DNA from: Pseudomonas sp. G.S.17
Lineage (GTDB): Bacteria > Pseudomonadota > Gammaproteobacteria > Pseudomonadales > Pseudomonadaceae
Reading direction: 5' to 3'
Assembly: GCF_038096165.1 (NCBI RefSeq)
Contig: NZ_CP151076.1
Location: 2,849,501-2,913,500 of the forward strand
Length of the DNA stretch: 64,000 bases
Part shown: positions 36,515-57,692 of the stretch, in pieces
Layout: every line of letters starts with the position of its first letter
Position numbering within the stretch: position 1 is the stretch's first letter
Translations under genes and position numbers: made by a program
The notes under the pieces: generated by a model
The model's database searches: none
What the model was told of the DNA's origin: nothing
The model's input: the letters and a program-made list of their open reading frames with translations, nothing else

Positions 36515-36518
36515 TGCA

Positions 36519-37442
36519 TCACCCCCTGAAATCTGCTTGGTAGGATTCGAATTCGACGATTGAAGCGAACTCCTTGTTCGCAATTGACAGCCTCGCAATG
36601 TCTGCAATTTCCTCATGATCTACGTAGTTGTAGTCAGGGAACGCGAGGGCCACCTTGTGAGGAAATTCCATGGCGATTTCCATCGAGAAGCCAATCATGC
36701 GTTTTACCGCTTCGAGGCTGAAAGGATCCTGACAGCAGATTAGCAGTGATTTCCTTTCATGCTCTTGGATGAAGAAGGGGATCAAGCCACTGTTGAGGTA
36801 TTCGGGAGGCAGTATCGTCCCGTTTGTGATCCTCTCGATGGGGCTTACGTTTTTCCCAGTAGAGGGGTAGAGGAAACGAACATTTTCTGCACCGAATCGA
36901 TTTCTCGCGTACGTAATGGTGTCGAACAGAAAGCTAGCTCGGTAATTATCAATGACGTAGATGGTGCCGTAGTTGAAGCTGTCGAGGTTTCGCGACCCCG
37001 CTACTTGACTGACCACATCCTCCTCTGCGTCCGATGCCGCACTGAACCAGCAAAGGATGCCAGCGAGCGACTGACCGCTCGCGCCTGTATAGCCCGAGTT
37101 GATCGACTTTTTCAACGGTGAGCGATTGAAGCACTCGACTGTCGTTGCAAGGTCGGTGAAATTGTCTTTGAATAATGGGCCAGGAGAAGTTGGGTAGGGG
37201 CCGGATGTAAATTTCGAAGAAATAACGAGGTGCTTGAGGACGCCGTCCTCCAATGGGGATAGGCAGCTGAAGACAAAATCGGCACCATGGGTTTTTCTGG
37301 GGTTGCCGGTCGTGCTGTGGAGGACAGGTTTCACACAGTCGAACTCGTGTCCCTTGAGTGCTGCCTTCCAACCAATCAGGTTGAGCAGCGACTCCGTGAT
37401 GTGTTCACCACGCTCGCCCAGCTTCTTTGACCATTCGCCCAT
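36519..37442 (-). CDS. gapS4a: GapS4a-like PD-(D/E)xK nuclease
   Basis: A 307-aa protein, probably the DNA-cutting subunit. Near the N-terminus GERGEHITESLLNLIGW is followed by THGADFVFSCLSPL and HLVISSKFTSGPYPTSPG: a Glu, an Asp and a (S)SK arranged as in PD-(D/E)xK enzymes. The segment DLATTVECFNRSPLK and the end FPDYNYVDHEEIADI fit GapS4a proteins as I recall them. ATG 37442 is preceded by AAGGA; the frame is open upstream but lacks support. It is divergent from the McrB-like gene across 190 bp, so two defence systems may share a control region. Confidence 0.68.
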   Translation of the reverse strand: MGEWSKKLGERGEHITESLLNLIGWKAALKGHEFDCVKPVLHSTTGNPRKTHGADFVFSCLSPLEDGVLKHLVISSKFTSGPYPTSPGPLFKDNFTDLATTVECFNRSPLKKSINSGYTGASGQSLAGILCWFSAASDAEEDVVSQVAGSRNLDSFNYGTIYVIDNYRASFLFDTITYARNRFGAENVRFLYPSTGKNVSPIERITNGTILPPEYLNSGLIPFFIQEHERKSLLICCQDPFSLEAVKRMIGFSMEIAMEFPHKVALAFPDYNYVDHEEIADIARLSIANKEFASIVEFESYQADFRG

Positions 37443-37631
37443 CACACGTTCCTTGAATAATGAATGTCTTGCAACCCTATGCGGCCAGAACGCTACGGAG
37501 GTTGAGGGATGATGTCTAGTGGCAATTTGTCGGCAAATCGACGGTGGATTGTCTAGCTTCAGGATAATGGCTAACCCATCAAGCCGGTGCGTCAGCCTAC
37601 GACTAGGGCATGCAGGGTGAGGGATAGTGAA

Positions 37632-39995
37632 ATGCTCTCGCTTACCTCCCGCTACGGCAAAGATGGGATCTGGCTTCCAGCCCGCAGCAGTGACATTATC
37701 TCGCCATCTAAATATCGTTGGTGGAGAATGGACTTGCTGGATCTTAAGGATGACGAACAGCTGAAGGCTGCATGTATTAGTCTTCAGGAGCAGGTAATGT
37801 CCTTGGCGGGTAATCAAAGCTGGATCACCGAATTCCAGCAGTGGTTGGTGCGTGTCAGGGATGTGTCTCATGAAGAGTTCTTAAGCAAGGACTTCCAACT
37901 GGCGCTCTGGGACACCGAGGCTGTTTCGGCAACCGGCATGGGGCGCATCAACATTTCTGCGGTCGCCGAAAATTCGGCCATCGCAGAGAGCCTCTGGCAT
38001 CTGAAGCAAAAGTTCGCGCAGACGAGCGATCCTTCTGAGAGTGAAATGCTCATCGCCGACGCTTGGGCTCAGATTGCGTCCGCAGTTGCTGGGCTGACCA
38101 AAAGAAACCCTCGACTGAAGATGTACAGAGTTTTCGCATTGCTTTGTCCGGGTGCATTTACGTCGATAGCGCATCATCGAAAACTGCGCGAGCTGGCTCA
38201 TGCCTTGGGGATTCCACTGAGCGGTCAGAGGCGTCATCTGCACCGACTCGTATTGAACCGGTTAGATGACGTGCTGGGTGAGGTGGTAGACGTCTATTCA
38301 AGGGAGGGGGTCTCACGCTTGACGCTGCCTTGGCTGCTGTTCGTCAACTATGTTCAGAACCCAGAAGGCGAAGCCACCGAAATATCCGACCTGGAGACAG
38401 GTGACGAAGTACTCAAGCCCTTGCCCCCTGAGAGAAGGAGGCGCGGTTTGCTGGCGATTGGCGGAGGCCCAGCCACCATTCAAAGCATGATCGACTTTGC
38501 AACAGATGGATGCACTCGTGAAGACTTCATCCAACACTTGCAATCGATCAACCCTCAATCAAAAACGTCGACTTGCAACACTCAGCTGAACGCTCTGATT
38601 GCCGAATGGGGCGTGCTGCGTGCCAACGCAAGCAACATGCAGTTGACACCCCGCGGGGAGGCATTCCTGGAGTCGGGTGATCCAGATGAGATCATTGACT
38701 GGATGATCACCCGCATCTTGGGGTTTGACTATTTGCTAGCGGCATTGCGTGACACACCGTTATCTAACCGTGACGCCATCCTCACACTCAGAAAGGCAAA
38801 CCCAGGATGGACGACTGATTTCGCCCCATCAGCGATTATTGGTTGGTTCAGGTACCTTGATCTGGTCACGATCTCCGAGAAAGTGCTCAGCCTTACCGAA
38901 AGGGGTAAGCAGTGGGTTAATCGCATTCACTGGGAGCCTAAGGGTCTTGCGAGCATTCCAGGTCTCAGCCCGTCCTTAGCTCAAGTAGCCCCAGTCCAGC
39001 TCGATATCGAAATTGAGCGGCCGAAGCTACGCGCCGTGATTGACCGCTTTGATCAAGAGTTTCGCTTTCCAGAGGAGTTGATCGGACAGCTTGATGCTGG
39101 ATTGTGGGGGCACCCGAGGCGTCATTTCGCGGTGCTGACAGGCTTGAGCGGCGCGGGAAAGACGCAACTTGCCCGTAACTATGCGCTGAGTCTATGGCAG
39201 GACGATCCCGAGCCAAGTGAAGGGTTGCTGATCGTGCCTGTCCAGCCAGGCTGGCACGACTACACGAGTCTGCTGGGCTACGTTAATCCGCTGGAGTCAG
39301 ACGCGTATGTGCGTACTGGCGTTCTGGATTTTCTCCTGCAGGCAAGCGCCAACCCGACGAAGCCCTACACACTGGTTCTTGATGAAATGAACCTCTCTCA
39401 TCCGGAACAATATCTGGCGCCTCTACTTTCAGCGATGGAAACCGGTGAAACGATCGTCTTTCACGGTCAAGTCGACGAGATCGATGGTGTTCCTCCAGGC
39501 ATTCCGTATCCGAGCAACCTCGTGATCATCGGCACCGTGAACATGGATGAGACCACTCATGGGTTGAGCGACAAGGTGCTTGATCGAGCGTCTGTGATCG
39601 AGTTTTGGGACATTGAGGTCAAAGCATTTCCTGGCTGGCAGAAGAGCTCGCTTGAGGATGAACAGATTTCAATAGTCAGAAATCTCATGTCCTCACTCAT
39701 GGATGTGCTTCGTCCAGCTCGACTGCATTTCGGGTGGCGCACGCTCAACGACGTGATTGGCTATCTGCAGCAAACGCAGGCGGGTGGTGTCATCGAGTTC
39801 TCACGTGCACTCGACCATGCCATTTATTCGAAGATACTCCCCAAGTTGCGCGGTGAAGACAGCCCTCGACTTCAGCAGGTGTTCACTTTGCTACATGCCA
39901 CGCTCAAAGATGCGGGGTTGGGTATGTCGCTGCGCAAGGTTAAAGAAATGGCCGACGACCTGGCTCACTCCGGCTCGACTAGATTCTGGCGGTAG
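37632..39995 (+). CDS. McrB-like AAA+ GTPase/ATPase
   Basis: The motor subunit of a McrBC-like type IV restriction or related defence complex (787 aa). The AAA domain occupies the last 300 residues: Walker A GLSGAGKTQLARNYAL (~504), PGWHDYTSLLGYVNP, Walker B LVLDEMNLSHPEQYL and the McrB signature GTVNMDETTHGLSDKVLDRA. The N-terminal 500 residues, without known family, probably recognise the target. ATG 37632 has GAGGGA seven bases before it; ATG 37728 is an alternative. The nuclease gene starts 3 bp downstream. Confidence 0.84.
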   Translation: MLSLTSRYGKDGIWLPARSSDIISPSKYRWWRMDLLDLKDDEQLKAACISLQEQVMSLAGNQSWITEFQQWLVRVRDVSHEEFLSKDFQLALWDTEAVSATGMGRINISAVAENSAIAESLWHLKQKFAQTSDPSESEMLIADAWAQIASAVAGLTKRNPRLKMYRVFALLCPGAFTSIAHHRKLRELAHALGIPLSGQRRHLHRLVLNRLDDVLGEVVDVYSREGVSRLTLPWLLFVNYVQNPEGEATEISDLETGDEVLKPLPPERRRRGLLAIGGGPATIQSMIDFATDGCTREDFIQHLQSINPQSKTSTCNTQLNALIAEWGVLRANASNMQLTPRGEAFLESGDPDEIIDWMITRILGFDYLLAALRDTPLSNRDAILTLRKANPGWTTDFAPSAIIGWFRYLDLVTISEKVLSLTERGKQWVNRIHWEPKGLASIPGLSPSLAQVAPVQLDIEIERPKLRAVIDRFDQEFRFPEELIGQLDAGLWGHPRRHFAVLTGLSGAGKTQLARNYALSLWQDDPEPSEGLLIVPVQPGWHDYTSLLGYVNPLESDAYVRTGVLDFLLQASANPTKPYTLVLDEMNLSHPEQYLAPLLSAMETGETIVFHGQVDEIDGVPPGIPYPSNLVIIGTVNMDETTHGLSDKVLDRASVIEFWDIEVKAFPGWQKSSLEDEQISIVRNLMSSLMDVLRPARLHFGWRTLNDVIGYLQQTQAGGVIEFSRALDHAIYSKILPKLRGEDSPRLQQVFTLLHATLKDAGLGMSLRKVKEMADDLAHSGSTRFWR

Positions 39996-39998
39996 ACC

Positions 39999-41603
39999 AT
40001 GTCGATCATCTTGCAGGTAGAGCAGGGCGATGCTCGATTTGACGTGCACCCAGGTCAGTTGAACCCAGGTTTCATGGAGAAGAAGGCTTATCGTTTTACC
40101 GCGCTTGAAGGGTTTTCCTTATACATTGATGACGTCTTGATCGAGACGGTCGACCAAAACGGCGTGTGTGCGTGGTTATGGTCGCCAGGCTTTTATGCAG
40201 GAGAGGTCGCGGCAGAGCTTCTGGATGACCAGGGGCGGACTGCCGCCATTTACCGGCTGGACGTTTCAGCAGCTGATAATAAGCTCGGAGGCCAGGCATT
40301 CGCTGCCATGGTTGAGGCGATTCTGGATTTCGACCCGGCTCTGGTTCTGGGCACAGAAGAGGCTCAGTTTGGAATTGGCCATGATGGAGCACTAACCAAC
40401 CCGCATCTGCAGTATGCGAGGCTGAGACGCTATGGGGATCGGCTTCACCGCGCGCTCAAACAGATATCTCAGCGGCCGTTAACAACCTTGAAGAGCGACC
40501 GCACCTCGGTGAGTGCCCACACGGTCAAGCGGTTGGACTCCGCATCCGTCCATAGGGCACTCAGAGGGCCGACGGGGCAGGCACTGTTGCATCCTGCTAG
40601 TACTCAGCGTCCGGCCCTGAACACTGTACGCTTTGAGGTCAGCAGATCTTACGAGGAAGAGGACAACCCGGCGAATCAGGCCGTTGGACTTGTTCTCTTC
40701 GATGTTCTTAGACGTTGCCGGCAGGTGGTGAGGGGACTTCAACATGCCGCTGCAACTGAGATGGTCAGCGAAACCCGATCAGCGTTAACGCCAAGGCTCG
40801 TACGTCGAATTGCGTTCACCGAGTCGCTTGCTCGCAAGCTTGAATGGCTTCAACGCGCGAGACCTTTCTGTATCGTGACTGCCAGACGTCTATCGGCTGC
40901 AGGATTGAATGCGATCTCTGCTCACCCTGCATATGCGCGAGCTTATCGGTTTGGTTGGTACGCGTTGCGTTCAGGGTGGTTGGGAAAGGATCCTGATGAG
41001 ACGCTGTGGATTAGTCCAACATGGGAGATCTACGAGCGGTGGTGCTTTGTGACGGTAGTCTCACAGCTGCAACGTCAGCTTCCTGAACTCGTCTGGAGTC
41101 GTGAATATCGATCGTTGGGCTTTAGAGAAATCGTATGGCGGGGAAAAGCGGCTGATGTGACAGTTGAGGTGTGTTACCAAGTCCGATGCCCAGCGATTGA
41201 TCAGCCTGCGCATCGCGGTTTCCAAAGTTTATCGCGAGAGAGATATCCGGATATCGTCGTGACGTTGGACTCGCATTCGGCGAAGCGCTTCGTAGTTTTC
41301 GACGCAAAGTATCGCAGCGCCCGCGCCAGCGTCCTGGATGCGATGGAGTCAGCGCACATTTATCACGACAGTCTCCGGTGGAAGGGCATCAAGCCTGACG
41401 TTTCATTGCTGCTGATACCTCGGGCAGACAAAGTAATGTCGCTTGTCAGCCCGACCTATCATGCGGACTATGGGGTCGGAGCTTGGCAAATCGGGACTGA
41501 GTCAGAAGGGGAGGCACTGGGTATCGAGCTCAAACGTATTCTGAGTGCAGTACCAATCGCGGCCGCTCCGGCGCGTACAATTGCTACTGGAACGGCGAAG
41601 TAA
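39999..41603 (+). CDS. DUF2357/PD-(D/E)xK nuclease, McrC-like partner
   Basis: A 534-aa McrC-type effector. The N-terminal ~200 residues are a beta-rich DUF2357-like part. The middle has WISPTWEIYERWCFVTVV, the YExW motif typical of McrC. The nuclease core is YPDIVVTLDSHSAKRFVVFDAKYR, with the D...DxK triad (about residues 418-440). It is coupled to the AAA gene (3-bp gap). Together they should cut foreign DNA once the AAA ring is activated. Which modification or structure is sensed is unknown. Confidence 0.84.
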   Translation: MSIILQVEQGDARFDVHPGQLNPGFMEKKAYRFTALEGFSLYIDDVLIETVDQNGVCAWLWSPGFYAGEVAAELLDDQGRTAAIYRLDVSAADNKLGGQAFAAMVEAILDFDPALVLGTEEAQFGIGHDGALTNPHLQYARLRRYGDRLHRALKQISQRPLTTLKSDRTSVSAHTVKRLDSASVHRALRGPTGQALLHPASTQRPALNTVRFEVSRSYEEEDNPANQAVGLVLFDVLRRCRQVVRGLQHAAATEMVSETRSALTPRLVRRIAFTESLARKLEWLQRARPFCIVTARRLSAAGLNAISAHPAYARAYRFGWYALRSGWLGKDPDETLWISPTWEIYERWCFVTVVSQLQRQLPELVWSREYRSLGFREIVWRGKAADVTVEVCYQVRCPAIDQPAHRGFQSLSRERYPDIVVTLDSHSAKRFVVFDAKYRSARASVLDAMESAHIYHDSLRWKGIKPDVSLLLIPRADKVMSLVSPTYHADYGVGAWQIGTESEGEALGIELKRILSAVPIAAAPARTIATGTAK

Positions 41604-44311: not shown

Positions 44312-44749
44312 ATGAGTAAGCCTTTCAAAGACCGCATTCATGCCATGAATCAGATGTATAAGCTGCCGATAAACAGCGTTCCCACGCTTCTGGCCGATCC
44401 TGCGGACAAGCTCAGGAAGTTCAAGGTCACACTAATGGCTGAACTTCATGAGATCGATGAAATCGTCGAGAAGATCGAGAAAGGTGAAGCCGAGATCGAT
44501 ATCAAGGTTGCCATTGCCGACCTGCTGGGCGATGTGATGGTTTACTGCCGGTCTGAGGCCCTGAAATACGGGTTGCCATTGGAGGACGTCCTGAACGTCA
44601 TCATGGACAGCAACGAAAGCAAACTGGGAGCAGATGGAAAGCCTATCTACGACGAGAACGGGAAGTTCCTCAAAGGCCCGAATTACTGGAAGCCAGAGCC
44701 TAAGATTAAAACCTTGCTTCTTAGAGCTGAGGATAAAGCGGACGTTTGA
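44312..44749 (+). CDS. MazG/PRA-PH-like nucleotide pyrophosphohydrolase
   Basis: A 145-aa protein with the all-alpha NTP pyrophosphohydrolase signature: ELHEIDEIVEKIE supplies the ExxE pair and IKVAIADLLGDVMVYC the DxxxD-type metal site. It is followed by the PRA-PH-like stretch VIMDSNESKLGADGKPIYDE, then GKFLKGPNYWKPEP. Enzymes of this group split nucleotides between alpha and beta phosphates. It is first of a tight three-gene unit with a GHKL ATPase and a phosphoribosyltransferase-like protein, suggesting nucleotide-based signalling or depletion. AAGGAA lies before ATG 44312. Confidence 0.78.
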   Translation: MSKPFKDRIHAMNQMYKLPINSVPTLLADPADKLRKFKVTLMAELHEIDEIVEKIEKGEAEIDIKVAIADLLGDVMVYCRSEALKYGLPLEDVLNVIMDSNESKLGADGKPIYDENGKFLKGPNYWKPEPKIKTLLLRAEDKADV

Positions 44750-44763
44750 TTGGAGACACAGGC

Positions 44764-45909
44764 TTGAAACCTATCAACCTTGGCAAGACGCGTACGCTCA
44801 AAGACATCGAAGCAGCCATTCGCAAGATCAGCGACAGCCAGGGTGAGAGGTTTCTCATTCAGGCAGACATGCTCAGTGCGCGGCATGGCGCCATGCATGA
44901 TGCCGCACGCCTGCAACTGATCGTTACTCTGGCCCGGCAGCAGTTGCAGAGCGATTACCTGGATTTTAATCCGCAGGCCGATGCTAAAACGTTGCTGCGC
45001 AACCTCGCTAACTGTTCGCCAGGTATTGCGGCCTTGCGCCTTTCCAAGGGTGTCCGGCTGGGCGAGCAGACATTCAATCGCCGAGAGGTCTTTCAGGAGT
45101 CGGTCGAACGAATGCAGGCCATGGACGCCGGCAGGTACGAGGACGTCGTCAACGGCCGAGTCGTCGATCTGATCTGTGTTGCAGGATCTAAGGTTCAGCA
45201 CCTGCGACCGCTTTTTAGCGCGGAAGACAAGGTGAAGCCTGCGTCCGAAATGACCACTGAGATGCGCAGACTCATTGACTTCGTCAACAAGCAGAGCGGG
45301 CGCACCAGTGTCCCGGATTCTCTCCTCGAAAGCTTAGGCCTGCTCTGCTCTGAGCTTGTATCCAACACCCAGGAACACGCGACTTCAGACCACTTGGGCC
45401 ATGCGTATGTCGCCCATGTTGAAGGCGTCATGGTCGGATGGAAGCGACTGGAGGACGAGATTTTTGCTGAAGATTTTGACGGTAGTGAGGACTTGCGCCG
45501 TTACTGGCAGCGAGAGTCGTCCACCACCGAAAACAACAAGACCAGCCTGCGCGCATTGCACATCAGCTTCTTCGACTCAGGCCCCGGATTTGCCTCCAGG
45601 TTTAGCGGCAGAGCGGTGCATGAGATGTCGCTCCAGGAAGAGCGAGACTACCTGCTCAAATGCCTGCAGCCACGCCAGTCCAGCAAGACTCTGGACGCTG
45701 CGGGCATCGGCCTACCGGCCATCCTGAACGAGCTTCGCAAGGTGGGCGGGTTGATCCGGATCCGCTCCGGTCGGCTGTGCATCTACAACCAGTTCGAAGA
45801 GAACGATCAGCACCGTCACCCTGACGATTTCAGAGATTGGGACACCACCGACTTGGCGCCCGTTGCAGGGGCTGTTGTCACCATCATGATTCCATTGAGG
45901 GGCATGTAA
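44764..45909 (+). CDS. GHKL-type ATPase
   Basis: A cytoplasmic protein of 381 aa with a C-terminal histidine-kinase/HSP90-type ATP-binding fold. The N-box is LCSELVSNTQEHA, G1 is ISFFDSGPGFASRF and G2 is DAAGIGLPAILNELRKVGG. No dimerisation histidine, receiver or membrane segment is visible, so it is not a classical sensor kinase; the first ~180 residues have no known family. Start TTG 44764 has GGAG eight bases before it; TTG 44746 overlapping the previous stop is an alternative. Its stop overlaps the next ATG by one base (TAATG). Confidence 0.8.
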   Translation: MKPINLGKTRTLKDIEAAIRKISDSQGERFLIQADMLSARHGAMHDAARLQLIVTLARQQLQSDYLDFNPQADAKTLLRNLANCSPGIAALRLSKGVRLGEQTFNRREVFQESVERMQAMDAGRYEDVVNGRVVDLICVAGSKVQHLRPLFSAEDKVKPASEMTTEMRRLIDFVNKQSGRTSVPDSLLESLGLLCSELVSNTQEHATSDHLGHAYVAHVEGVMVGWKRLEDEIFAEDFDGSEDLRRYWQRESSTTENNKTSLRALHISFFDSGPGFASRFSGRAVHEMSLQEERDYLLKCLQPRQSSKTLDAAGIGLPAILNELRKVGGLIRIRSGRLCIYNQFEENDQHRHPDDFRDWDTTDLAPVAGAVVTIMIPLRGM

Positions 45910-48110
45910 TGGAGCGTTTCTATCAATGGATGTCTGCTGTAAGCGACTCCTATGGCAGTCATGAAGCGTTGGTCGTCTGCTACAACAATTCCGAGCTATC
46001 GGTTCAGCATGTCTTCACTGATATCGAGGCAGCGCTGAAGGCCCAACGGCATCTACCTGACTGCGTCTACATCCTGGGGACGTCTGATCAGTTATCTGTG
46101 TTCAAGAGCGGTTGGGCTGACGACCAAGACCGCCTGGCCAACCTCCTGAAGCGTGGCGAGAAAAACTCGCGTGTCTGTGTCCATGAATACGTGTTCCTGG
46201 AGTGGAATGGTGCGAGCTTCATCCCTCATGTGCTGGGCGGCAATGAGCTTGTCTACCGTCATGATCCGAGCGCTCTCTTGAGGGATGGCTTGAGCACGCT
46301 GATCGAGAAGAACAACGTCATTCATTCAGCGCCGTCCGCGCATTCCTTCAAGCACCCCTCCGGCACGCTCAACAATGTGTTCATCCAAACCAGGGAACTG
46401 GCGAGCGATGAGGCCGAGGTGTGTGTGGTGGGGTATGCGATTGCACTCGAGTACGTTGCCAGGCTGCGCCAGGCTGACAAGGTGTACATTGACACCATGG
46501 GCATCTACGCATTCGTGAAAAATGCGCTCGCTCGCTTGGACAGCAAGGCCGAAGTCATGAGCTTCCACTCCTACGAGCGGCTCAAGACCATCTACCCGCC
46601 GGCTGGTGAGTATTTCTGCGTGGTATCAGCCTCCACATCTGGCGGTATGGCCAAGCAGATGGGTGAGCAGGGCTTCGCAGAGGAGTGCGTTGCCACACTG
46701 ATCGATCGCACGGCGGATGACCGATACGGGGGTGTGCTGGTCGCCCTGGATGACATTGACTACCCACTGCCGGTCAAGGCGGAGGAAGGCTACACGCTGA
46801 TTGAGATCATAGGGGAGAACTTCTCGGCGAAATCCAAGCCACCCAAGTCGATCACGATATCCTTGAAGCATGACCCGAAGCGGCTGGCCAAATTCCACAA
46901 GTACTTCGGTATGGGAGGAATTGATGGATTCAACAAGTCTAGCAAGCCTCGCAAGCTGTTGACGCTCAATCCTGATCTGTTACTGGCGGACGCTGCCTTC
47001 AGAAAATGGCTTGCCGCTGAAATCGACTGGTCGGTCTCCATGGCGACAAACCTGATCGTCTACGCCGACGATGACGGGTCGAAGAAACTCGGCGAGGTGG
47101 CCCATGAGATGCTCAGCGAGAAATGGGGCGCGACCAAGTCAATCCGATGCGTGCCTTACAGCGAGCTTGATCAAGTCGATTTCAAAACCGTCTCCGGGGT
47201 GCTGGTCGCGACAGTGGTTGCGCGCGATGGCGGCATCCTGAGAGAGATTAGTCGTGATCTTCGGGCCTACATGGAAGCGACCGTGCCGCGCAGGTTCCTT
47301 GCACCGATCGGGATTCCACAGAGCGCGAGAGCCTGGACACTTCTCAAAACTTTCTTGATGAAGAACCCCACGCCCCGGGAGTATGGCCTCTCTAACTGGC
47401 TGTGCCTGCCTATCGGAGATGACGGGAAAGAGAACGCCTGGAGTCGGTTGACCAAGGTTGCCTCTGCCGGGCAGGTCGATGACGTCGGCTTCATGCCCGC
47501 AGTCGCGGACAAGGTTCGTCATCAGGCTCTTGATGAGGCCGCTGAGCTGGTTATGGCGCACAAGCACAGCTTCCTGCCAAAACATGACGGCAGCGCGCTC
47601 GCCTTATCCGATGGCTTTCTGTTCTTCGACGCCTCAAGCAATGTGGGCCAGGACTGTCCGAACGTACCGCAAAGTACGGTGTTCTTTACGATTGCTGCAG
47701 TCCTGCAGTTCGCTCGGGAACACGAAGATCATGATCTGCGGCTGCAGCCGACGGGGTATGAGTCCGTGGTGTTATCACCGGAGTGCTTCCTTCGGTTTAA
47801 CGACAACGTCCTACAGGCGTCATTCCTCCGGGCGTGTCTCCCTTCAGAGCTTGACTACTCAGCAAGCCCGGAGCTGAGCAAGCTGATGAAGGAGTTCATC
47901 GCCAAGGTATTTGCCCGCTGGGAGCGGACTTACGGCGATGCCGCCCTGGAGTTTGCCGCTGCACTGGCTACCGGTACGCTAAAGCTCACGCAGGAAGACG
48001 CCCGGGCACTGCTCGAGGAGGCTATCGAAAACCGTAAGGACAAGGCCTCCAGCCTATTGGGGTTGCTGCTGCTCACCCAACGCGCGCTGTTCCCTGCCTC
48101 TGAAGGATAG
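45909..48110 (+). CDS. Large protein with a phosphoribosyltransferase-like N-terminal region
   Basis: A 733-aa soluble protein, start ATG 45909 coupled to the preceding gene. The segment SFKHPSGTLNNVFIQTREL resembles the SGK-S-FI loop of orotate phosphoribosyltransferases, and EYFCVVSASTSGGMAKQM lies where a PRPP-binding loop would be. The N-terminal 110 residues and the part after ~300, with a helical C-terminus, match nothing I recognise. With the MazG-like and GHKL partners it forms a candidate nucleotide-acting defence cassette. The enzymatic role is inference. Confidence 0.65.
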   Translation: MERFYQWMSAVSDSYGSHEALVVCYNNSELSVQHVFTDIEAALKAQRHLPDCVYILGTSDQLSVFKSGWADDQDRLANLLKRGEKNSRVCVHEYVFLEWNGASFIPHVLGGNELVYRHDPSALLRDGLSTLIEKNNVIHSAPSAHSFKHPSGTLNNVFIQTRELASDEAEVCVVGYAIALEYVARLRQADKVYIDTMGIYAFVKNALARLDSKAEVMSFHSYERLKTIYPPAGEYFCVVSASTSGGMAKQMGEQGFAEECVATLIDRTADDRYGGVLVALDDIDYPLPVKAEEGYTLIEIIGENFSAKSKPPKSITISLKHDPKRLAKFHKYFGMGGIDGFNKSSKPRKLLTLNPDLLLADAAFRKWLAAEIDWSVSMATNLIVYADDDGSKKLGEVAHEMLSEKWGATKSIRCVPYSELDQVDFKTVSGVLVATVVARDGGILREISRDLRAYMEATVPRRFLAPIGIPQSARAWTLLKTFLMKNPTPREYGLSNWLCLPIGDDGKENAWSRLTKVASAGQVDDVGFMPAVADKVRHQALDEAAELVMAHKHSFLPKHDGSALALSDGFLFFDASSNVGQDCPNVPQSTVFFTIAAVLQFAREHEDHDLRLQPTGYESVVLSPECFLRFNDNVLQASFLRACLPSELDYSASPELSKLMKEFIAKVFARWERTYGDAALEFAAALATGTLKLTQEDARALLEEAIENRKDKASSLLGLLLLTQRALFPASEG

Positions 48111-48811: not shown

Positions 48812-49999
48812 CTACGCCGATCTGCTAGAGATTTGGAGCGGCGTATGATTTGTGCCCACATTGATTGACGTCTGTCGCACCCATTTTATGGATCCGAATT
48901 TAATCTTTTGAATATCTTCTTCAGAGCACCCGTCGTCTGCCATAGCAACAGCTGCTTCTGCGAGAACCATCTGGAACAGGAGATTTACATGTCTGCGACT
49001 CAAGCCTGGCCGACCAGCGTTAGTAGAAAAAAGAGGGGTCGAATCGCGAGCTAGAGGAATCAAATGAGTGCCAACATGACGGCGATAGCGCGCCAGATGA
49101 ATTGTTCGGTAATCCTCCGGAACCTGAACTGTAATTAAACCTTTACCGCCGACGCCCAAGTTGAGATACATGCGATCATCATCATCATAGAAAAAATCTG
49201 ACATCCTTAATGTCCCACTGTACTTGTCAAAGTCTCCAGGTTTGAGAAGCAGGTGAAAGGCAGACATCACGACGAAGCGCGTGCGCTCATGCGAGCTGTC
49301 CTTGGCGATCAAATCGTCCATGGCTTTTGTGATGTAGAGCCACTCACTTGGAGAAAATACACCTAGGGGGCCATCAGCTGCCGGAGTCTGGACATACTGC
49401 CCACTTCGGTCAATTTCTTGCATAGGGTTGATGGACATCAAGTCTTCGCCACCAAGGAACAAAAAAAATGAACGGCAAACCGAGGCCAGTTGTGGGAGTG
49501 ACGTTTTATTGTGGACGCGCAGATCAGCTAGGGGGGCGGTATCTCCCGATGATGAGCAATCATCTGCAGAGGCCGCGACGAACGGACGCCAATCAGAATT
49601 GATGATATAGGCAGTTATAGAGCCACGCTTGCGGCCATTGGTGCGAGTGAACCGTTGATGAGAGTAGGCGCTAACCCAATGTGTGGGTGGATCATTACAG
49701 AACTCAAAGAACTCATAGACATCATTGGCGTCAAGCAGGTTAATGGGCTTCGCTGCGATGTAGATTGACCAACTGAGCAACTTCTCAATCTGGGTACGAT
49801 AAACGTTATAAGAACCGTTGTTACGAAAGTTGGACAAAAAGAGCCGCACCACTTTGTAGGACTTGCGAGCATCTGTTGCAGCATCCTGAGCCAACAAAAA
49901 AGCACGTACCTGTGATTGTTCGTTCTCAAGGGTGTCCAGATTCAGTTTGTTGAACCTGGACTGCGTTTCAAAAAAAGGGATTGGCGAGACGTTCATCAT
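48812..49999 (-). CDS. Tyrosine recombinase-like protein 3 of the right array, catalytically degenerate and short
   Basis: A 395-aa protein paralogous to the two upstream recombinases (FETQSRFNKLNLDTLENEQSQVRAFL aligns with their starts). The first catalytic Arg is lost (AFHLLLKPGDFDKYS instead of LHLRASDF), the HxxR box reads KWVRQTSIN instead of HWLRHTSAT, and the C-terminus ends before the Tyr region. It is therefore either a pseudo-enzyme acting in a complex or a gene in decay. Its start overlaps the preceding stop by 4 bp, so co-translation is kept. Confidence 0.75.
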   Translation of the reverse strand: MMNVSPIPFFETQSRFNKLNLDTLENEQSQVRAFLLAQDAATDARKSYKVVRLFLSNFRNNGSYNVYRTQIEKLLSWSIYIAAKPINLLDANDVYEFFEFCNDPPTHWVSAYSHQRFTRTNGRKRGSITAYIINSDWRPFVAASADDCSSSGDTAPLADLRVHNKTSLPQLASVCRSFFLFLGGEDLMSINPMQEIDRSGQYVQTPAADGPLGVFSPSEWLYITKAMDDLIAKDSSHERTRFVVMSAFHLLLKPGDFDKYSGTLRMSDFFYDDDDRMYLNLGVGGKGLITVQVPEDYRTIHLARYRRHVGTHLIPLARDSTPLFSTNAGRPGLSRRHVNLLFQMVLAEAAVAMADDGCSEEDIQKIKFGSIKWVRQTSINVGTNHTPLQISSRSA

Positions 50000-51378
50000 A
50001 TGCCTTGATTCCTGTTGACGAGTTTGTCATACACGACTCTCATACCTATTTGTTTTGTTGATTCGATCGCTTGTCGATCTTGTTGCTTGGTGTAAGGGGA
50101 AGCGGTGTGATCAGATGCGCTTGCTGGATGCAGATAGCTGATTATCCGGCCTTTGTAGTATCTTTCTTCGGTCGCTCCGACATCCGCAATACGCAGATCC
50201 CTGTTGAGATGCAGGGCAGTCATTGAGGCGGCTTTCAGGGTGGCAGAGGTATGGCGGAGCCACTTTATGGATCCGGCTACAAGCCTACTTACCTGGTCTT
50301 CGGGCCGCCCGTCCTCCACCATGATGCTTGCTGCCACATCAAGAACCTCCTGAAACAGCACATTTACATACCTGGCGGCAAGACCTGCGCGCCCGCGATG
50401 ACTAGCGAACAATGGTGTAGGGTCACGGGAGAGTGGCTGTGAGTCCTCCCCCAGATAACGCCGGTAGCGCGGTAAGTGAATGCTTAGATACTCATCGTCC
50501 ACGCTGATTATTTGCCGTTCATCGCGTGACGCGCCTAGAGGGAGCCAAGCTGCACCATCGACGTCAGAGAAGAAGTCGCTCATTTTAAGTGTGCGGCTGC
50601 AGCTGGCGAAATCACTGGCCCGCAGGTGCAAGTGATAGATGGACATGACGATGAACCGCGTGCGCTCATGGCTGCGATCCTGAGTGACCAATCGATCGAG
50701 TGCTCGGTTGAGATAACCCCACTCAGAAGCAGAGAACACGGTCTGGCGCTTGTAATCATCACGCGGCCTAACATACCGCTCGCTCCGGTTGATTTCGCGC
50801 ATCGGGTTCTCGCGGATCAAATCCTCTGTCGCTAAAAACAAAAAGAATGACCGGCATGTCATGGCCAGCAAGCTAACTGAGACCGCAGCGTATTGGTGTC
50901 CTTTGGATTCGCACTCGGGTAAGCCATCAGTCGACAGATTTTGCACCGCGAGGTTGGAGACGAAAGGGCGCCAGTGGCTGTTGATGACATAGGTCGTCTG
51001 AGAATGACGTTTTCGGTCATTTGCCTTCATAAAACGTTTTTCTGGCCTCAAGCTGATCCACGCTTGGGGCGGACTGCTGCAGAACTCGAAAAACTCCTCA
51101 AGGTCGTCTGGGCATAGCGCGGTGAGCGGTTTGCGAGCGATACAAATCGACCAGCTCAAAAGCTTCTCAATGTTGTTTCGCTGGGCCTGATACGACGCTA
51201 ATTTGACGTATCTCGACAAAAACAGGCGCACTGCTAGATAGCTTTGGATCGCGCCCGTCCCATCGTTATGAGTCGCCAAAAAAGCACGGATATCGGACAG
51301 CTCGACGTCCAGCGCTTGTAGATTTAGTTTCTTGAAGCGCTCATGCGCCTCAAAAAGAGGAATCGGCAGAACAGTCAT
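49996..51378 (-). CDS. Tyrosine recombinase 2 of the right array
   Basis: A 460-aa recombinase. The catalytic domain has IYHLHLRASDFASCS with Arg, IKWLRHTSATLKAASM with Arg and the following His, and EERYYKGRII for the Tyr region. The N-terminus (FEAHERFKKLNLQALDVELSDIRAFL) shows common descent with its two neighbours. It sits in a leftward three-gene operon and overlaps the next gene by 4 bp. The order of three recombinases recalls RIT-type trios, though these are close paralogues. Confidence 0.82.
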   Translation of the reverse strand: MTVLPIPLFEAHERFKKLNLQALDVELSDIRAFLATHNDGTGAIQSYLAVRLFLSRYVKLASYQAQRNNIEKLLSWSICIARKPLTALCPDDLEEFFEFCSSPPQAWISLRPEKRFMKANDRKRHSQTTYVINSHWRPFVSNLAVQNLSTDGLPECESKGHQYAAVSVSLLAMTCRSFFLFLATEDLIRENPMREINRSERYVRPRDDYKRQTVFSASEWGYLNRALDRLVTQDRSHERTRFIVMSIYHLHLRASDFASCSRTLKMSDFFSDVDGAAWLPLGASRDERQIISVDDEYLSIHLPRYRRYLGEDSQPLSRDPTPLFASHRGRAGLAARYVNVLFQEVLDVAASIMVEDGRPEDQVSRLVAGSIKWLRHTSATLKAASMTALHLNRDLRIADVGATEERYYKGRIISYLHPASASDHTASPYTKQQDRQAIESTKQIGMRVVYDKLVNRNQGI

Positions 51379-51420
51379 GCTTCACCTGCGAATTTCCGAA
51401 AGGGTTTGCCAGGCTGTACC

Positions 51421-52716
51421 TCAGCCACGGTCTTTCATGCCCAGCCGCTTTAATGAATAGGCGCGCTTCTCATCGTGGGTGTTGTAGTAGACGTCCTGTG
51501 TTGTGGCGAGGCTGCTGTGACGCATGTCTGTTTGCAGATCCTTTGCCTCCCGCAGTGGTGCATCGAAAGTGGCCGAGGTATGGCGCAGCCAGTGCGCAGA
51601 GGCCAATCGCAGGTTGTCTACGTCGATATCATCCCACTGCTCGTCAATCATCCTTGCCAGCGCGCGGTCGAATACCTGCTGCATCAGGGCTCGGACATAG
51701 CGATCGGACAGGCCCGGCCGGCCTTGAAAGGAGGCAAGGAGCGGGGTGGTTTCGCCAGGTGAGGGGAGTGGGGGCAGATTCAGGTACCCGCGGTATCGAA
51801 CAAGGTAGCTGAGGTAATCATCCCGAACGCCTATTTTGGCTGATTTGTTGCCCTTGCCCACAACGTGAAGCCACCAATTTCCATGACCATCCTGGCGAAA
51901 ATCCCCCATGCAGGGCTTCCAGTTTGAACGTCCGACCAAATCGGATATCCGCAAATACATAGAGAACAGGGTAGCTGTGATGAATAGCGTGCGCTCATGA
52001 CGCTCTGGCTCCTCGACGGCCATCGCCTCAGCCGTCTCTAGGACATAATCCCATTGCAGTGGTGTCAGGGCTCGGTTGGTAGAGTCTGTCGCCAGGCGTT
52101 GGCGATAGGATGATTTTTGCCTGATAGCCCGAAACGGATTGAGCGCATTCATTCCCTCGACAATCGCGAATTCAAAGAAGCTGCTGCACACAGAAAACGT
52201 GGAGGCCACGGTAGCTTGCGACATGGCGAATTTTGGCTCGGGTGGTTCAACCCCGGTTTCATCGGCGATCTTGCGTTGGCGCTTAGGTGTTGAGGTACAG
52301 AACGGTCGCCAGTTCGGATTGACTTTTTGGCTGGAGATCGACTCGGCAGTCTGGGCCGATGCCATGAATCGTCCTCGAACAACCGGGCCGATCCATCCCG
52401 AAGGTGGATTGAGGCAAAATTCCATGTAGGCTTCGGCGTCAACACGCTGTAGCTCCAAAAGTGGCCGCCGACGGACGATCAGGCTCCACAGCAGCAGCCG
52501 CTCGATATTTGTCCGGTAGGAATTGAAGGTCGTTTCGTTGCCGGCATACGACTTAAGAAAGCTTCGCACCGCCTGGTAACCTTCGAGTGCATTTAGACCA
52601 GGATGAAAACCCGCCAGGTACTCGACGACCAAAGGATTCTCGGCGCTGAGCCCGTTGAAATTGAGCGCGAGAAAATTAGGGTAGGTATCGAACAACGGTT
52701 GCGGTTGGATTGCCAT
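51421..52716 (-). CDS. Tyrosine recombinase 1 of the right array
   Basis: A 431-aa recombinase, first of the leftward trio and the most complete: LFSMYLRISDLVGRS with Arg, SAHWLRHTSATFDAPL with His and Arg, and the C-terminal DMRHSSLATTQDVYYNTHDEKRAY with the second His and nucleophile Tyr region. The N-terminus FDTYPNFLALNFNGL parallels its neighbours. Upstream, two 17-bp direct repeats (52829-52863) may be its regulatory or binding sites. It is the best candidate for an active recombinase at the right end. Confidence 0.86.
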   Translation of the reverse strand: MAIQPQPLFDTYPNFLALNFNGLSAENPLVVEYLAGFHPGLNALEGYQAVRSFLKSYAGNETTFNSYRTNIERLLLWSLIVRRRPLLELQRVDAEAYMEFCLNPPSGWIGPVVRGRFMASAQTAESISSQKVNPNWRPFCTSTPKRQRKIADETGVEPPEPKFAMSQATVASTFSVCSSFFEFAIVEGMNALNPFRAIRQKSSYRQRLATDSTNRALTPLQWDYVLETAEAMAVEEPERHERTLFITATLFSMYLRISDLVGRSNWKPCMGDFRQDGHGNWWLHVVGKGNKSAKIGVRDDYLSYLVRYRGYLNLPPLPSPGETTPLLASFQGRPGLSDRYVRALMQQVFDRALARMIDEQWDDIDVDNLRLASAHWLRHTSATFDAPLREAKDLQTDMRHSSLATTQDVYYNTHDEKRAYSLKRLGMKDRG

Positions 52717-53989: not shown

Positions 53990-54027
53990 GAAAAGGAGCG
54001 TATCACCACCCCCGAGGTAAATCCAAG

Positions 54028-54145
54028 GGTACGCATAATTTCTGTGACGTTATGGTATTCACCGCCCGAATGGGCAGAGTCGGGCATCGGGAAAATCGCC
54101 CCGCGCCCGGTGCCCGATTTACCCATAACGTCCATTATGCGTGCC
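54028..54145 (+). other. CTXphi-type single-stranded attP hairpin with dif-like site (copy 1)
   Basis: On the + strand GGTACGCATAAT (54028-54039) pairs with ATTATGCGTGCC (54134-54145) with one G-T wobble, and ACGTTATGG (54047-54055) pairs with CCATAACGT (54123-54131). An inner 11-bp stem joins 54081-54091 with 54106-54116. Read on the minus strand, 54145-54118 has the order of dif: XerC-like arm GGCACGCATAA, 6-bp centre TGGACG, XerD-like arm TTATGGGTAAA. This is the layout of CTXphi attP(+), which folds and is joined to chromosomal dif by XerC. Confidence 0.72.
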
Positions 54146-54218
54146 GGTACCATTTCATACGACCTGGTGCGATTTCCGGCGACGATTATGGTACTAAAAG
54201 CTTGCTCTATCTATCAGC

Positions 54219-54274
54219 TTTGGTACCATTGTCTCGCCCAGGTACTTCACCTGGTTAACGGGAGTGGTACCAAA
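54219..54274 (+). other. Second long hairpin upstream of the first phage gene (copy 1)
   Basis: TTTGGTACCA (54219-54228) and TGGTACCAAA (54265-54274) form a 10-bp outer stem, and CCAGGT (54238-54243) / ACCTGG (54249-54254) an inner one. The last base of the hairpin is the first of the ATG at 54274. A replication origin (nick or minus-strand priming) or a packaging signal is plausible for a single-stranded phage. Confidence 0.55.
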
Positions 54275-54531
54275 TGCTCGTAAAAATCCTCGATGCCGAT
54301 GATGATTTCGTTGAAACGCTGAAACGCCAGACCAGCACGAATACAGCTTCAAAGGCCTATGCTCACGCGGCTTTCCAGTTTCAGTTGTTGCGAGGTCGTA
54401 TTGTCGATCTTGAGTATCACGTTGAGTCTCTGCAGAACGAACTGGATGACGCCAATTCTGTACTTGAAGGTGCTCGTGCTGCCGCGTTGCTGGTCGTCGA
54501 GAAGACTTCGCAAGCTCGCCTCAAGATCTAA
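54274..54531 (+). CDS. Small phage protein with a coiled-coil segment
   Basis: An 85-aa protein, MLVKILDADDDFVETLKRQTS at the start, then a heptad-like helix (GRIVDLEYHVESLQNELDDANSVLEGARAAALLVV). No family recognised. It is the first rightward frame of the phage and lies directly behind a hairpin that overlaps its start, so its translation may be controlled by folding. No ribosome binding site is obvious. It is identical in copy 2. Confidence 0.6.
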   Translation: MLVKILDADDDFVETLKRQTSTNTASKAYAHAAFQFQLLRGRIVDLEYHVESLQNELDDANSVLEGARAAALLVVEKTSQARLKI

Positions 54532-54701
54532 CCGGTACCTTTTCTTCCTGCAGCAATGTTGCCCAGGGCGAAGTTCTGGTACCAGTTGCTGCCATACCTC
54601 GACCTGCCCGCAGGGCATTAGGCGCTTCGCAGATCCGCAGTCAGGCTAATCAACCTCCGCGCCGATACCCGGCAACGCCGGCCGTTCTCCCGCCCAACAA
54701 A

Positions 54702-54735
54702 AAACCCCCAGCGATCAACTGATCACTGAGGGTTT
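54702..54735 (-). terminator. Terminator of the leftward repressor module (copy 1)
   Basis: Read on the minus strand, AAACCC...GGGTTT arms enclose CAG/CTG and GATCA/TGATC pairs and are followed by a run of six T (complement of 54699-54704). This is a rho-independent terminator for the leftward genes ending at 54847. The + strand side has only a short T-run. The rest of the 54532-54846 gap shows nothing else I can assign. Confidence 0.8.
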
Positions 54736-54846
54736 CTGTCGCGTTCAAATCATCTTCAAGCGCCGTGATGGCACTTCGCGCCCTGATCCTCTGCTTTTCC
54801 AATCCCGGGCCGTCATTGGCCTTATGCGGTCCCGTGACGTCCAGCT

Positions 54847-55095
54847 CTATCGCCCGTCAGGTCCCGGCAGGTCCAATTTTCTAGCACCTTGGATTGGTAC
54901 GCCGATCAACCGTCTTTCGGTGTCGTCAATGGCCGTTGCCCTTACGTAGCAAGCCCCTGATGCCTTTACACCGTGTAGCCGCTGCACCATCAAAAGCTTT
55001 GTCATGGTGCTGCTGCACTTTGCTTCTGTGGCCGCTGGGAAGGCCATTTCAGGCTTTCCCTCGATCATCATCAAAAACACCCATGTTTCCAGCAT
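54847..55095 (-). CDS. Small phage protein of the leftward module
   Basis: An 82-aa frame with a strong ribosome binding site AGGAGG four bases before ATG 55095. Sequence features are MVQRLHGVKASGACYVRATAIDD and a C-terminal RRLIGVPIQGARKLDLPG. No family recognised. It lies 79 bp downstream of the repressor on the same strand and before a terminator, so both form one transcript. It may be an antirepressor, immunity or accessory replication protein. Confidence 0.65.
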   Translation of the reverse strand: MLETWVFLMMIEGKPEMAFPAATEAKCSSTMTKLLMVQRLHGVKASGACYVRATAIDDTERRLIGVPIQGARKLDLPGPDGR

Positions 55096-55173
55096 TCCGC
55101 CTCCTGCGATTTTGAGTCGAGCGGGTGGGGGTGCTGTAACACCCCCACTTTGGTATGGAATCCCATACTTTTC

Positions 55174-55506
55174 CTACTTCAGAGTCTCTTGTTCGAAGCT
55201 CTGTAAAACCCCTCTTAAAACTATCCTTGCCATGGATTTCATCTCATCCGGCAGCATGTCGAATCGCTGAAATAGAGCCCTCAGTTCTTCCGATACATGC
55301 CTTTCCGATTCGTCCATGACCAGCTGATCTGCTGAAATCCCTAAGGCTCTCGCAAGGGCTCCGATCCGGTCCCCAGGTGGCGGTTGTGATCCGCTCTCAT
55401 ATTTTTTATATGTTGATATCGGAATCCCTGCACTTACAGCCACTTGCGCCTGAGTCAAGCCCTTGTCCTCTCTGGCTTTGCTGAGATTTTCGCCAATATT
55501 CATCAT
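55174..55506 (-). CDS. Cro/CI-type phage repressor (Xre family)
   Basis: A helix-turn-helix repressor of 110 aa from ATG 55506 (the frame is open to an ATG at 55593). The HTH reads ENLSKAREDKGLTQAQVAVSAGIPISTYKKYESG, followed by RIGALARALGISADQLV and a helical dimerisation tail. It is divergent from the replication initiator and probably represses it, like RstR of CTXphi or Pf repressors. Neither start has a strong ribosome binding site. Confidence 0.85.
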   Translation of the reverse strand: MMNIGENLSKAREDKGLTQAQVAVSAGIPISTYKKYESGSQPPPGDRIGALARALGISADQLVMDESERHVSEELRALFQRFDMLPDEMKSMARIVLRGVLQSFEQETLK

Positions 55507-55600
55507 TTCGCTGCTCTGAGGTGCGTTATCGTCCACAGATGCTATTTCCTGTATAAAAAACCATAGATCGGATTTGGAACCTAAACAGACCATATTAGGG

Positions 55601-55628
55601 TTGACTGGTTCGACCCATATCCTATACC
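55601..55628 (+). promoter_or_regulatory. Promoter of the phage replication operon (copy 1)
   Basis: TTGACT (55601-55606) and TATACC (55623-55628) with 16 bp between. GGGT (55598-55601) and ACCC (55613-55616) frame it symmetrically, which could be part of the repressor operator. The initiator ATG follows 37 bp later. Confidence 0.6.
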
Positions 55629-55664
55629 TTTGCGTCTCGGATGTGGGTCTTGACAGGAATTCTG

Positions 55665-56789
55665 ATGTTTTACGATTGGGTTAAGGCGTTTCAGGATTAC
55701 CCGTACGATCTGCCCAAGGTCGCGGACATTATCATTCGCCGTCACGACGCTGAGACCGAACAGCTTTTAAGCCAGACTGCACCTCCTTTTTTGGCTGAGG
55801 GTAGCTACTGCACAAGCTTTCGAATTCAGGTTTCAGGTCGTCGGATCACTGTCGACGGCAACCCCTCCAGAATTAACCGGCTGGACAACGTTTTTGGCTT
55901 GCAATCGCTCGATGATTGCATGCGTGTTGTCAACTCTGTTCTCGCTGAGTATGACCTACCGCCGATGACTCGCTGTCGCGATATTCAGCGCTTGCAGGAC
56001 GGTGGTGTTGTCGCTGATGGAGCTGTCTTTCTTCGTCTCGATCTGACTTCGAATTTTTACGTAGGGCAGGGCAACGAACGCGCATTTCTGCGTGGTATTT
56101 CCAGCCAGCGTTATCGGAACTCCATTGCTTACCTGTATCCGGACGGCAACACCTGCGTTTGGACTCCGAAAGGTGGAGAGAAGGCCGGTCGGTTGGTTTA
56201 TCCGGGCAACTACAACAAAGCTGCTGAACTTAATGCTCACCTTCTTCCGCAGATGAAGCGGACCTACGGTGAGGACTCAGATGAATACAAATATGTTCGC
56301 CAGCTTCGCGACTGGTGCGTTTCTGTTGGCATGGTTCGATCAGAGATGAAATGCAGAAGTGAATTTTTAAAACGTGAAGGTCTTAATTTCTGGGGCCTAT
56401 TTCAAGAAGACGAATTGGTAAAACTCCACAGGGGGTTTCTCATGACTGGCGAACGTTTACAGGTCAATAGTTTTGACACATTCAGCGTTGCTGAACAGCT
56501 TATAGCTGAAGGTATTTGTGACAATACTAAAGCAGCCATGACAACAGCGGGTTATGTTCATCTGTGGATGCATAATCATTCATTCAATTTTGACAAGTCG
56601 TCTGTAAAAACCCATCGGGCTCGACTTCGCGCTATTGGTATTGATATCAAGCTTCCTTATGACGGTACTCGTCATGGTGCAGTATTTATTCGTAACGTAC
56701 GTGAAATCGTCCGTACATTTGAAACTCAGTTGCCAACGTTTTACCGTTCCGCTGTTGTTCCTCGTCACTTGCAATTGGTGGCCGCATGA
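55665..56789 (+). CDS. Phage replication initiation protein (gene II/X family)
   Basis: A 374-aa rolling-circle initiator that nicks the double-stranded phage DNA to start + strand synthesis. The family pattern is clear: MFYDWVKAFQDYPYDLPKVAD, GSYCTSFRIQVSGRRI, DGNPSRINRLDNVFGLQSLDDC, LPPMT and FLRLDLTSNFYVGQGNERAF. ATG 55665 is preceded by AGGA; an upstream TTG/ATG at 55641 lacks this. The 3' end overlaps the next gene by 4 bp. Transcription should be controlled by the divergent repressor. Confidence 0.88.
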   Translation: MFYDWVKAFQDYPYDLPKVADIIIRRHDAETEQLLSQTAPPFLAEGSYCTSFRIQVSGRRITVDGNPSRINRLDNVFGLQSLDDCMRVVNSVLAEYDLPPMTRCRDIQRLQDGGVVADGAVFLRLDLTSNFYVGQGNERAFLRGISSQRYRNSIAYLYPDGNTCVWTPKGGEKAGRLVYPGNYNKAAELNAHLLPQMKRTYGEDSDEYKYVRQLRDWCVSVGMVRSEMKCRSEFLKREGLNFWGLFQEDELVKLHRGFLMTGERLQVNSFDTFSVAEQLIAEGICDNTKAAMTTAGYVHLWMHNHSFNFDKSSVKTHRARLRAIGIDIKLPYDGTRHGAVFIRNVREIVRTFETQLPTFYRSAVVPRHLQLVAA

Positions 56790-57016
56790 AAACAGTTAGC
56801 TTTCAAGGCCTCAGCCTTTCTGCTGCTCAGCGTCGTCAAGTCGAACTGCGTTCACGTATGCGTCCTGTAGATACGTCTGTTCTTCGCGCTCAGGTAGAAG
56901 AAACCTTAGCTGCTGTAAAGCTCAGGAAAGAGCAGGGCGTTAAACCAGACCAGCAGTATTTTCATGTATCCAATGATGCTGGTACGCCTTCAGTCGCTGA
57001 ATGGATGGGTTACTGA
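56786..57016 (+). CDS. Small phage protein after the initiator
   Basis: A 76-aa basic protein (SLSAAQRRQVELRSRMRPVD...) ending NDAGTPSVAEWMGY. No family recognised. It starts inside the initiator's stop (ATGA) and its own stop overlaps the next small gene (TGATG). It is thus part of a tightly packed replication block. Confidence 0.65.
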   Translation: MKTVSFQGLSLSAAQRRQVELRSRMRPVDTSVLRAQVEETLAAVKLRKEQGVKPDQQYFHVSNDAGTPSVAEWMGY

Positions 57017-57120
57017 TGGCTGGCTTTATGCGGTTCGCATCCACGTTAATTGATTTGTTTGTTATTTTCATTATTTGTCTTTCGGCTTCGTCTTTGGTTT
57101 TTTATGTCTGGGGTGTTTGA
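57016..57120 (+). CDS. Very small single-span membrane protein
   Basis: A 34-codon frame starting at ATG 57016 in the TGATG overlap and ending TGA 57118-57120, itself overlapping the next ATG. It encodes a basic start MAGFMRFAS and one membrane span (LFVIFIICLSASSLVFYVW). Its size suits inovirus minor proteins such as pVII/pIX or pI-associated peptides. The double overlap of starts and stops supports it. Confidence 0.6.
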   Translation: MAGFMRFASTLIDLFVIFIICLSASSLVFYVWGV

Positions 57121-57359
57121 TGGATCGTATTCAATATCAAATGCTTCGTTACTCAGTGGAGAATGAGATTGCTGATTATGACTCTGGGCGTTCTGACCCT
57201 AACGCTCTCGCTAATTCGCTTATGCGTTTGTTTCTACAGGCTCAGTCATCTGAGCAAGTCAGGAACCAACATGCAAAACGTAAACTACTAACTTTCAGGC
57301 GTCGTCCTGATGTAATTGTGCCCGGCTGGGCATTTCACCCAACTGGAAGGAACTCATAA
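57120..57359 (+). CDS. Small phage protein of unknown function
   Basis: A 79-aa hydrophilic protein beginning MDRIQYQMLRYSVENEIADYD and ending in a basic segment (KRKLLTFRRRPDVIVPGW). No family recognised. ATG 57120 overlaps the preceding stop, and its stop overlaps the next start. It lies before the single-strand-binding protein. Confidence 0.65.
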   Translation: MDRIQYQMLRYSVENEIADYDSGRSDPNALANSLMRLFLQAQSSEQVRNQHAKRKLLTFRRRPDVIVPGWAFHPTGRNS

Positions 57360-57688: not shown

Positions 57689-57692
57689 ATAA

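Follow-up and report, generated by a model that had tools for sequence, protein, structure and literature searches.

The window analysed here (the whole stretch of 64,000 nucleotides, 2849501-2913500 of contig C1 in the 6.27-Mb genome of Pseudomonas sp. G.S.17) contains a cassette of three adjacent genes, A, B, and C. The best overall explanation, with a probability of about one half, is that the cassette represents a three-gene subtype of PDC-M65, a two-gene candidate pair in the PADLOC 2023 database. Gene A (44312-44749, + strand; 145 aa, ATG start) encodes a MazG-like NTP pyrophosphohydrolase. Gene B (44764-45909, + strand; 381 aa, TTG start; 387 aa from an alternative TTG at 44746) encodes a GHKL ATPase/kinase-fold protein and corresponds to PDC-M65A. 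Gene C (45909-48110, + strand; 733 aa, ATG start) corresponds to PDC-M65B.

B matches the PADLOC model PDC-M65A with 97.3 bits (E 2.2e-28), only residues 158-385 being covered, and C matches PDC-M65B with 184.4 bits (E 7.6e-55) in two stretches. The distant homologues tested (eight of C and two of B) match the PDC-M65A and PDC-M65B models only. B and C lie side by side on one strand with a one-base overlap, the adjacency expected of PDC-M65. The partial coverage of B and the score of C (184 bits versus 392-474 bits in other homologues) indicate that the window locus is a diverged PDC-M65 member. As judged from the PADLOC models, the cassette almost certainly belongs to PDC-M65. The accession after PDC-M65B is PDC-M66A, and PDC-M65 therefore seems to be made of just two models. 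The window locus shares with it two matched, adjacent, and coupled genes in the neighbourhood of defence genes, and differs in the third gene, A, which has no PADLOC match.

The first-pass annotation of this DNA, made from the sequence alone, had proposed a wholly new system. A categorically new trio is ruled out by the PDC-M65A/B matches, in which distant relatives share. The pair is already catalogued as a candidate, and the claim shrinks to a three-gene variant. What is added here is the predicted tandem phosphoribosyltransferase (PRTase) anatomy of C and the finding that PDC-M65 recruited a MazG enzyme within one clade. PADLOC candidates form a queue of candidate systems, some of which were later proven real. 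'PDC' stands for 'phage defence candidate' (PMC11514479). PDC-M66 (HipA and DUF3037) is termed a predicted functional system (PMC12548924), and DS-6, a pair of HipA-like and DUF3037 proteins, is among validated systems (PMC13092281). No paper under the name PDC-M65 was found in the one literature collection searched.

B abuts C in 35/35 intact loci, with a gap of -23 to +2 bp. In 16 of these loci A lies ahead of B, 10-36 bp away, and it is missing from the other 19. The sequences show that the intact loci seen have B and C as their constant core, coupled in translation, and that A is an accessory of a single clade, in which all three genes are inherited together. A fixed trio, as initially described, is not what the loci present: the expectation that the three genes are seldom found apart holds for B and C, always paired in intact loci, and fails for the trio, found in one clade only. 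A as an obligatory part is ruled out by its presence in 16/35 loci.

The 35 loci derive from a homologue table with 48 rows containing C, of which seven lack B (L023 and L026 are truncated or fragmentary, and L084-L088 are weak matches or fragments). Of the 41 rows with B next to C, 20 include A; removal of the duplicates L061, L062, L066, L079, and L080 left 36 distinct loci, 17 with A. L009 and L024 (both with A) and L082 were dropped for a broken C, and the viral loci L129 (with A) and L130 (without A) were added. The tree of C also leaves out L025, cut by a contig end, and holds 34 proteins. The alignments comprise 76 sequences for C, 74 for B, and 30 for A, the window's own included, from 97, 120, and 120 listed. 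The loci with a broken C (L009/L066, in which B is also broken, L024, and L082) are otherwise similar; the cassette therefore also decays.

The presence of A requires 2 changes on the quick tree of 34 C proteins, which has long branches and some open forks, versus a mean of 11.5 for shuffled labels. The simplest reading is that A was gained once and lost once, the loss falling in L013. Over 15 loci, the Mantel r is 0.966 for A-B, 0.973 for A-C, and 0.995 for B-C, and 0 of 5000 permutations are as high. L013 (4728-12214) is from a Gallionellales metagenome-assembled genome; its B-C pair lies about 1 kb after two ORFs, with one ORF between, and the two ORFs are presumably type I modification and specificity genes.

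C has a patchy distribution, and its close homologues carry the name Pseudomonas. It is present in 22 of 398 genus genomes (four weak or partial, one broken) and in 7 of 398 phylum genomes (one weak). A is matched in 7 of the 398 genus genomes, six at 250 bits or more, each beside B and C, and the seventh at 25 bits; in the phylum set 4 of 398 match, strongly only in this genome (G000) and in the Alteromonadaceae genome G760. B was found in 4 of 144 relatives, with C present in all 4. C has no match in 50,697 phage records, occurs on 2 viral contigs in a pattern-based scan, and is matched in 10 of 72,556 plasmid records, 3 of which cover at least 80% of the protein. A blastn search with the Enterobacter copy found no C in E. 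coli, a search that diverged copies would escape. No substitute for A emerged from an all-versus-all comparison of the ORFs within 2.6 kb of 34 loci, in which no family besides A occurs at more than 4 loci. A survey for the family of A around genome G742 gave 0 matches in 150 genomes, a set with no known positive either.

The three frames are real and under purifying selection. Full-length homologues were found for each of the three intact ORFs. Comparison with a second copy in the same genome gives dN/dS values of 0.046 (A), 0.089 (B), and 0.056 (C), indicating that the frames are not chance; comparison with G323 (L063) gives 0.118, 0.077, and 0.122. The tight coupling noticed at first is confirmed: TTG 44746 overlaps the A stop, TTG 44764 lies 14 bp 3' of A, and the ATG of C and the stop of B have one base in common. 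TTG 44764 is the favoured, putative start of B, because GGAG is positioned 8 nt upstream and profile-guided starts give 380-385 aa in 16/16 A-carrying loci, by a method that leans to the profile. Counter to this choice, the nearest database homologues are annotated at 386-387 aa.

A scores 21.6 bits against Pfam MazG, just below the curated cut-off of 22, and the same family is matched at E<=0.1 by 25 of 30 A homologues. In addition, A matches the PHROG family 'nucleotide pyrophosphohydrolase' (E 2.9e-19), and its profile matches the 'putative NTP pyrophosphohydrolase' of PDB 3nl9 (E 3e-6). Residues E44, E47, D70, and D74 make up the signature E-x2-E...D-x3-D, a MazG-type metal-site motif, and are unchanged in 30/30 aligned homologues. 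The original call of a MazG-like protein with an ExxE/DxxxD signature is thereby borne out.

A could be a passenger, a generic (d)NTP pyrophosphohydrolase next to a working unit of B and C only, with protection unaffected by it. The 19/35 intact loci without A would fit, as would the abundance of A relatives elsewhere (2957 proteins at E<=1e-3). Set against this are the matches of at least 250 bits in 6/398 genus genomes, always beside B and C, together with co-inheritance, strong purifying selection, and few changes on the tree. We consider a passenger role unlikely. Loci with and without A, and the two diverged copies in this one genome, offer natural comparisons by which the role of the MazG enzyme can be tested directly.

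C is composed of an N-terminal alpha/beta region (residues 1-118), two PRTase-like domains, and a conserved C-terminal region (residues 505-733). In the predicted model, two type I PRTase folds are arranged in tandem. The first (residues about 119/120-296; 46263-46796, + strand) contains the loop SASTSGG at residues 240-246 (46626-46646), and the second (residues about 324-505; 46878-47423, + strand) contains the loop V-A-R-D-G-G-x-L-R-E-I-S-R-D-L-R at residues 437-452. Domain 1 aligns with domain 2 at an hhalign probability of 8.7% (E 0.0039). No match to C was found in Pfam or NCBIfam (limits E 5 and 1), nor in the PDB by sequence. The PRTase resemblance first noticed in C is thus confirmed at the level of the predicted fold, with two domains and not one; a sequence-profile relation is not significant. 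Of the roughly 430 residues that had been said to match nothing, those within 120-505 are predicted to hold the two folds, and residues 1-118 and 505-733 remain.

The acidic pair, part of the phosphoribosyl pyrophosphate (PRPP) motif, maps to S240-A241 in domain 1 (76/76 sequences) and to T435-V436 in domain 2 (435 non-acidic in 76/76, 436 in at least 73/76), a mapping based on two profile comparisons, neither significant alone. Both folds appear to lack the catalytic pair and to keep phosphate-type loops. Because the pair seems to be replaced in both domains, PRPP consumption by C, which had been hypothesised, is unlikely, and on this mapping its canonical form is ruled out; ligand binding is likelier than phosphoribosyl transfer, since the catalytic pair is seemingly absent from both folds.

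C might be an active PRTase-type toxin, carrying out non-canonical phosphoribosyl transfer or destruction once B releases it, with A secondary. This alternative stays alive because PRTase-type effectors exist in other defence systems: C has predicted PRTase folds, and PRTases are probable effectors in DprA-PRTase and type III retrons (PMC9122126, PMC12548924). The non-acidic residues at S240-A241 and T435-V436 argue against it, and we regard it as improbable. The PRTase with DprA protects against T7 and lambda and is likened there to shosTA (PMC9122126); type III retrons have PRTase effectors (PMC12548924). The window cassette would share with both a PRTase-type protein and a putative sensor in an anti-phage operon. 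Here the PRTase folds are in tandem, seemingly without the acidic pair, in a protein of 733 aa, and the partner is a GHKL protein, not DprA or a reverse transcriptase.

Bacillus subtilis PurR also uses a PRTase fold for ligand binding (PDB 1p4a with cPRPP, 7rmw with ppGpp). PurR is a DNA-binding repressor, whereas C has two PRTase folds and further end regions. In the DefensePredictor study (PMC13092281), MazG is among the predicted defence domains (text on Fig. 6F), and the legend on validated systems (Fig. 4) names a PRTase; MazG-type and PRTase domains are shared with the cassette, and they may or may not stem from the same system. In a review of Ter systems, PRTases are proposed to produce nucleotide signals (PMC7824862).

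B shows the features by which a Bergerat fold is recognised. The GHKL boxes N, G1, and G2 correspond to E203/N207, D277-x-G279-x-G281, and G320-x-G322, which are unchanged in 74/74 aligned members, in agreement with the GHKL fold assigned at first. HATPase_c of Pfam is matched by 3 of the 74 family members (best E 0.049), and a sequence search of the PDB gave one match (E 0.19). We infer that B is a SpoIIAB-type GHKL protein with an ATPase/kinase fold; no phosphoacceptor domain of a histidine kinase is recognisable in it.

B could be a STAS-GHKL serine kinase like CapK or VapK, not a dimerising ATPase, that senses single-stranded DNA or other damage and phosphorylates C, switching C on. CapK and VapK are SpoIIAB-like GHKL kinases, and CapK-CapS and VapKSC have in common with the cassette a SpoIIAB-type GHKL protein in immunity-linked operons (PMC13373217). 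Their partners are a wHTH repressor or a PIN nuclease, whereas the partner here is PRTase-like; neither a STAS domain nor a gene for a STAS partner was detected. At its N-terminus, B aligns with STAS domains of the same genome at a non-significant hhalign probability of 1.3% (19 columns over an expected helix), and other regions of B at 0.1-0.7%. STAS has no Pfam match in any of the 74 family members at E<=1 and is not among the 50 Foldseek matches listed for B. Besides A, no conserved gene was found beside B and C. We regard such a kinase as improbable, on a level with the toxin.

Several observations weigh against the reading of the cassette as a three-gene PDC-M65 subtype with the enzymes described. 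A homologue of A stands apart from the B-C pair in G760, which carries B-C elsewhere; the gene adjoining this lone relative is, we presume, GFA-like. A homologues occur in 99 phage records, all below 60% identity, and at 18 of 19 viral loci with A relatives no B or C was found on the contig. Because homologues exist without B and C, A may act as a pyrophosphohydrolase of a generic kind. L013 retains A-clade B and C and is without A, and the C tree that places its loss is a quick one. B has no match in Pfam or NCBIfam (limits E 5 and 1), and its best Foldseek E is 6.7e-3. The PRTase relation of C comes from the predicted fold and not from sequence: against eight PRTases of the same genome, the two domains reach hhalign probabilities of 0.8% and 1.3%, not significant; with a four-member profile the values are 0.2% and 0.4%. 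As a control, the C-terminal region of C reaches 1.7%, as high as the domains, and the eight PRTases find each other at 87-97%. Only 2 of 50 VIA rows cover the first PRTase domain. No phage assay of the BC pair or the ABC trio was found in the literature consulted.

An anti-phage role of the cassette is probable, and a defence function is what we consider likely. In the scheme proposed for the PDC-M65 subtype, B would respond to infection as an ATP-driven switch and act on C. The simplest arrangement puts C under the control of B, because no other ATP-using switch is evident and C always accompanies B. Like the PRTase-fold repressor PurR, C would bind a ligand of the phosphoribosyl or nucleotide type; it would also carry the effector output, for which its highly conserved C-terminal region is the probable site. 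The essential output is expected from B-C, since much of the family is without A. Within its clade, A might hydrolyse (d)NTPs or a related nucleotide and deplete the pool that phages need; alternatively, it might produce the ligand of C or remove it. The infected cell would be arrested or killed. That C is a nucleotide-binding effector under B control is a tentative assignment, somewhat short of an even chance, and A as a nucleotide-depleting arm is more doubtful still. Bolder, and improbable as it stands, is the idea that two fused, catalytically dead PRTase folds form a GHKL-gated nucleotide or alarmone receptor, the nucleotide being made, cleared, or depleted by a dedicated MazG enzyme that one lineage has gained. 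If true, the receptor would give a circuit against phages whose input is the nucleotide pool and not a phage protein or DNA. PDC-M65 gains an anatomy (a GHKL switch, tandem PRTase folds seemingly without the acidic pair, and a conserved C-terminal region), a split into core and accessory, and a tree for the accessory gene.

The genome carries another complete A-B-C cassette in inverted orientation about 44 kb downstream, at G000:C1:2941257-2945052 (- strand), past the window end (about 91757-95552 in window coordinates). Identity between the two copies is 88% for A, 82% for B, and 81% for C. The dS between the two copies is 1.3-2.1, which speaks for two separate acquisitions and not for a recent duplication. 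A Gabija pair stands on either side of the second copy, at distances of about 12 and 7 kb, and a gene for a Shedu-like protein is located about 21 kb away.

The defence-rich setting claimed for the cassette is supported by the flanks. PADLOC models matched at E<=1e-15 number 221 for 123 flanking proteins and 192 for 108, versus 61 for 111 control proteins, a rough contrast that is weakened by the redundancy of the models and by matches in the controls (helicases and general ATPases). The scan covered 123 of 140 flanking ORFs and 111 of 186 control ORFs, the latter at fixed positions elsewhere (12 of 20 regions) in six of the same genomes. The matches listed include Gabija, Septu, QatD, a DRT reverse transcriptase, and type I RM. 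The weakest alternative, a mobile nucleotide-stress or housekeeping module unrelated to defence, would suit three genes that all look nucleotide-related and the lack of a phage assay in the literature consulted, and is quite unlikely in view of the patchy spread (22/398), the defence-rich flanks, the PADLOC candidate status, and the two diverged copies about 44 kb apart.

The upstream neighbour of the cassette is a McrBC-like pair (37587-41603, + strand). Its first protein (37587-39995) matches PADLOC PDC-M26A with 128.8 bits and the partner has no PADLOC match, which lends some support to the McrBC-like label given earlier. The GapS4-like label is unconfirmed: the two genes at 35378-37871 (- strand) have no PADLOC match at E<=0.001, a result with which a GapS4 identity is compatible. 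Just downstream of the cassette, three consecutive ORFs (48812-52716, - strand) resemble one another, have no PADLOC match, and are, we assume, tyrosine recombinases. The region 25718-33235 contains a tRNA-Cys, then an integrase-like ORF and two ORFs that resemble recombinases, and we take it to be a probable island boundary. A tandemly repeated element occupies 54025-64000, with two identical ORFs of 139 aa (55174-55593 and 62720-63139) and a 300-nt repeat whose identical copies are 7546 bp apart; the ORF at 60122-61489, which we take to be Zot-like, suggests a filamentous prophage.

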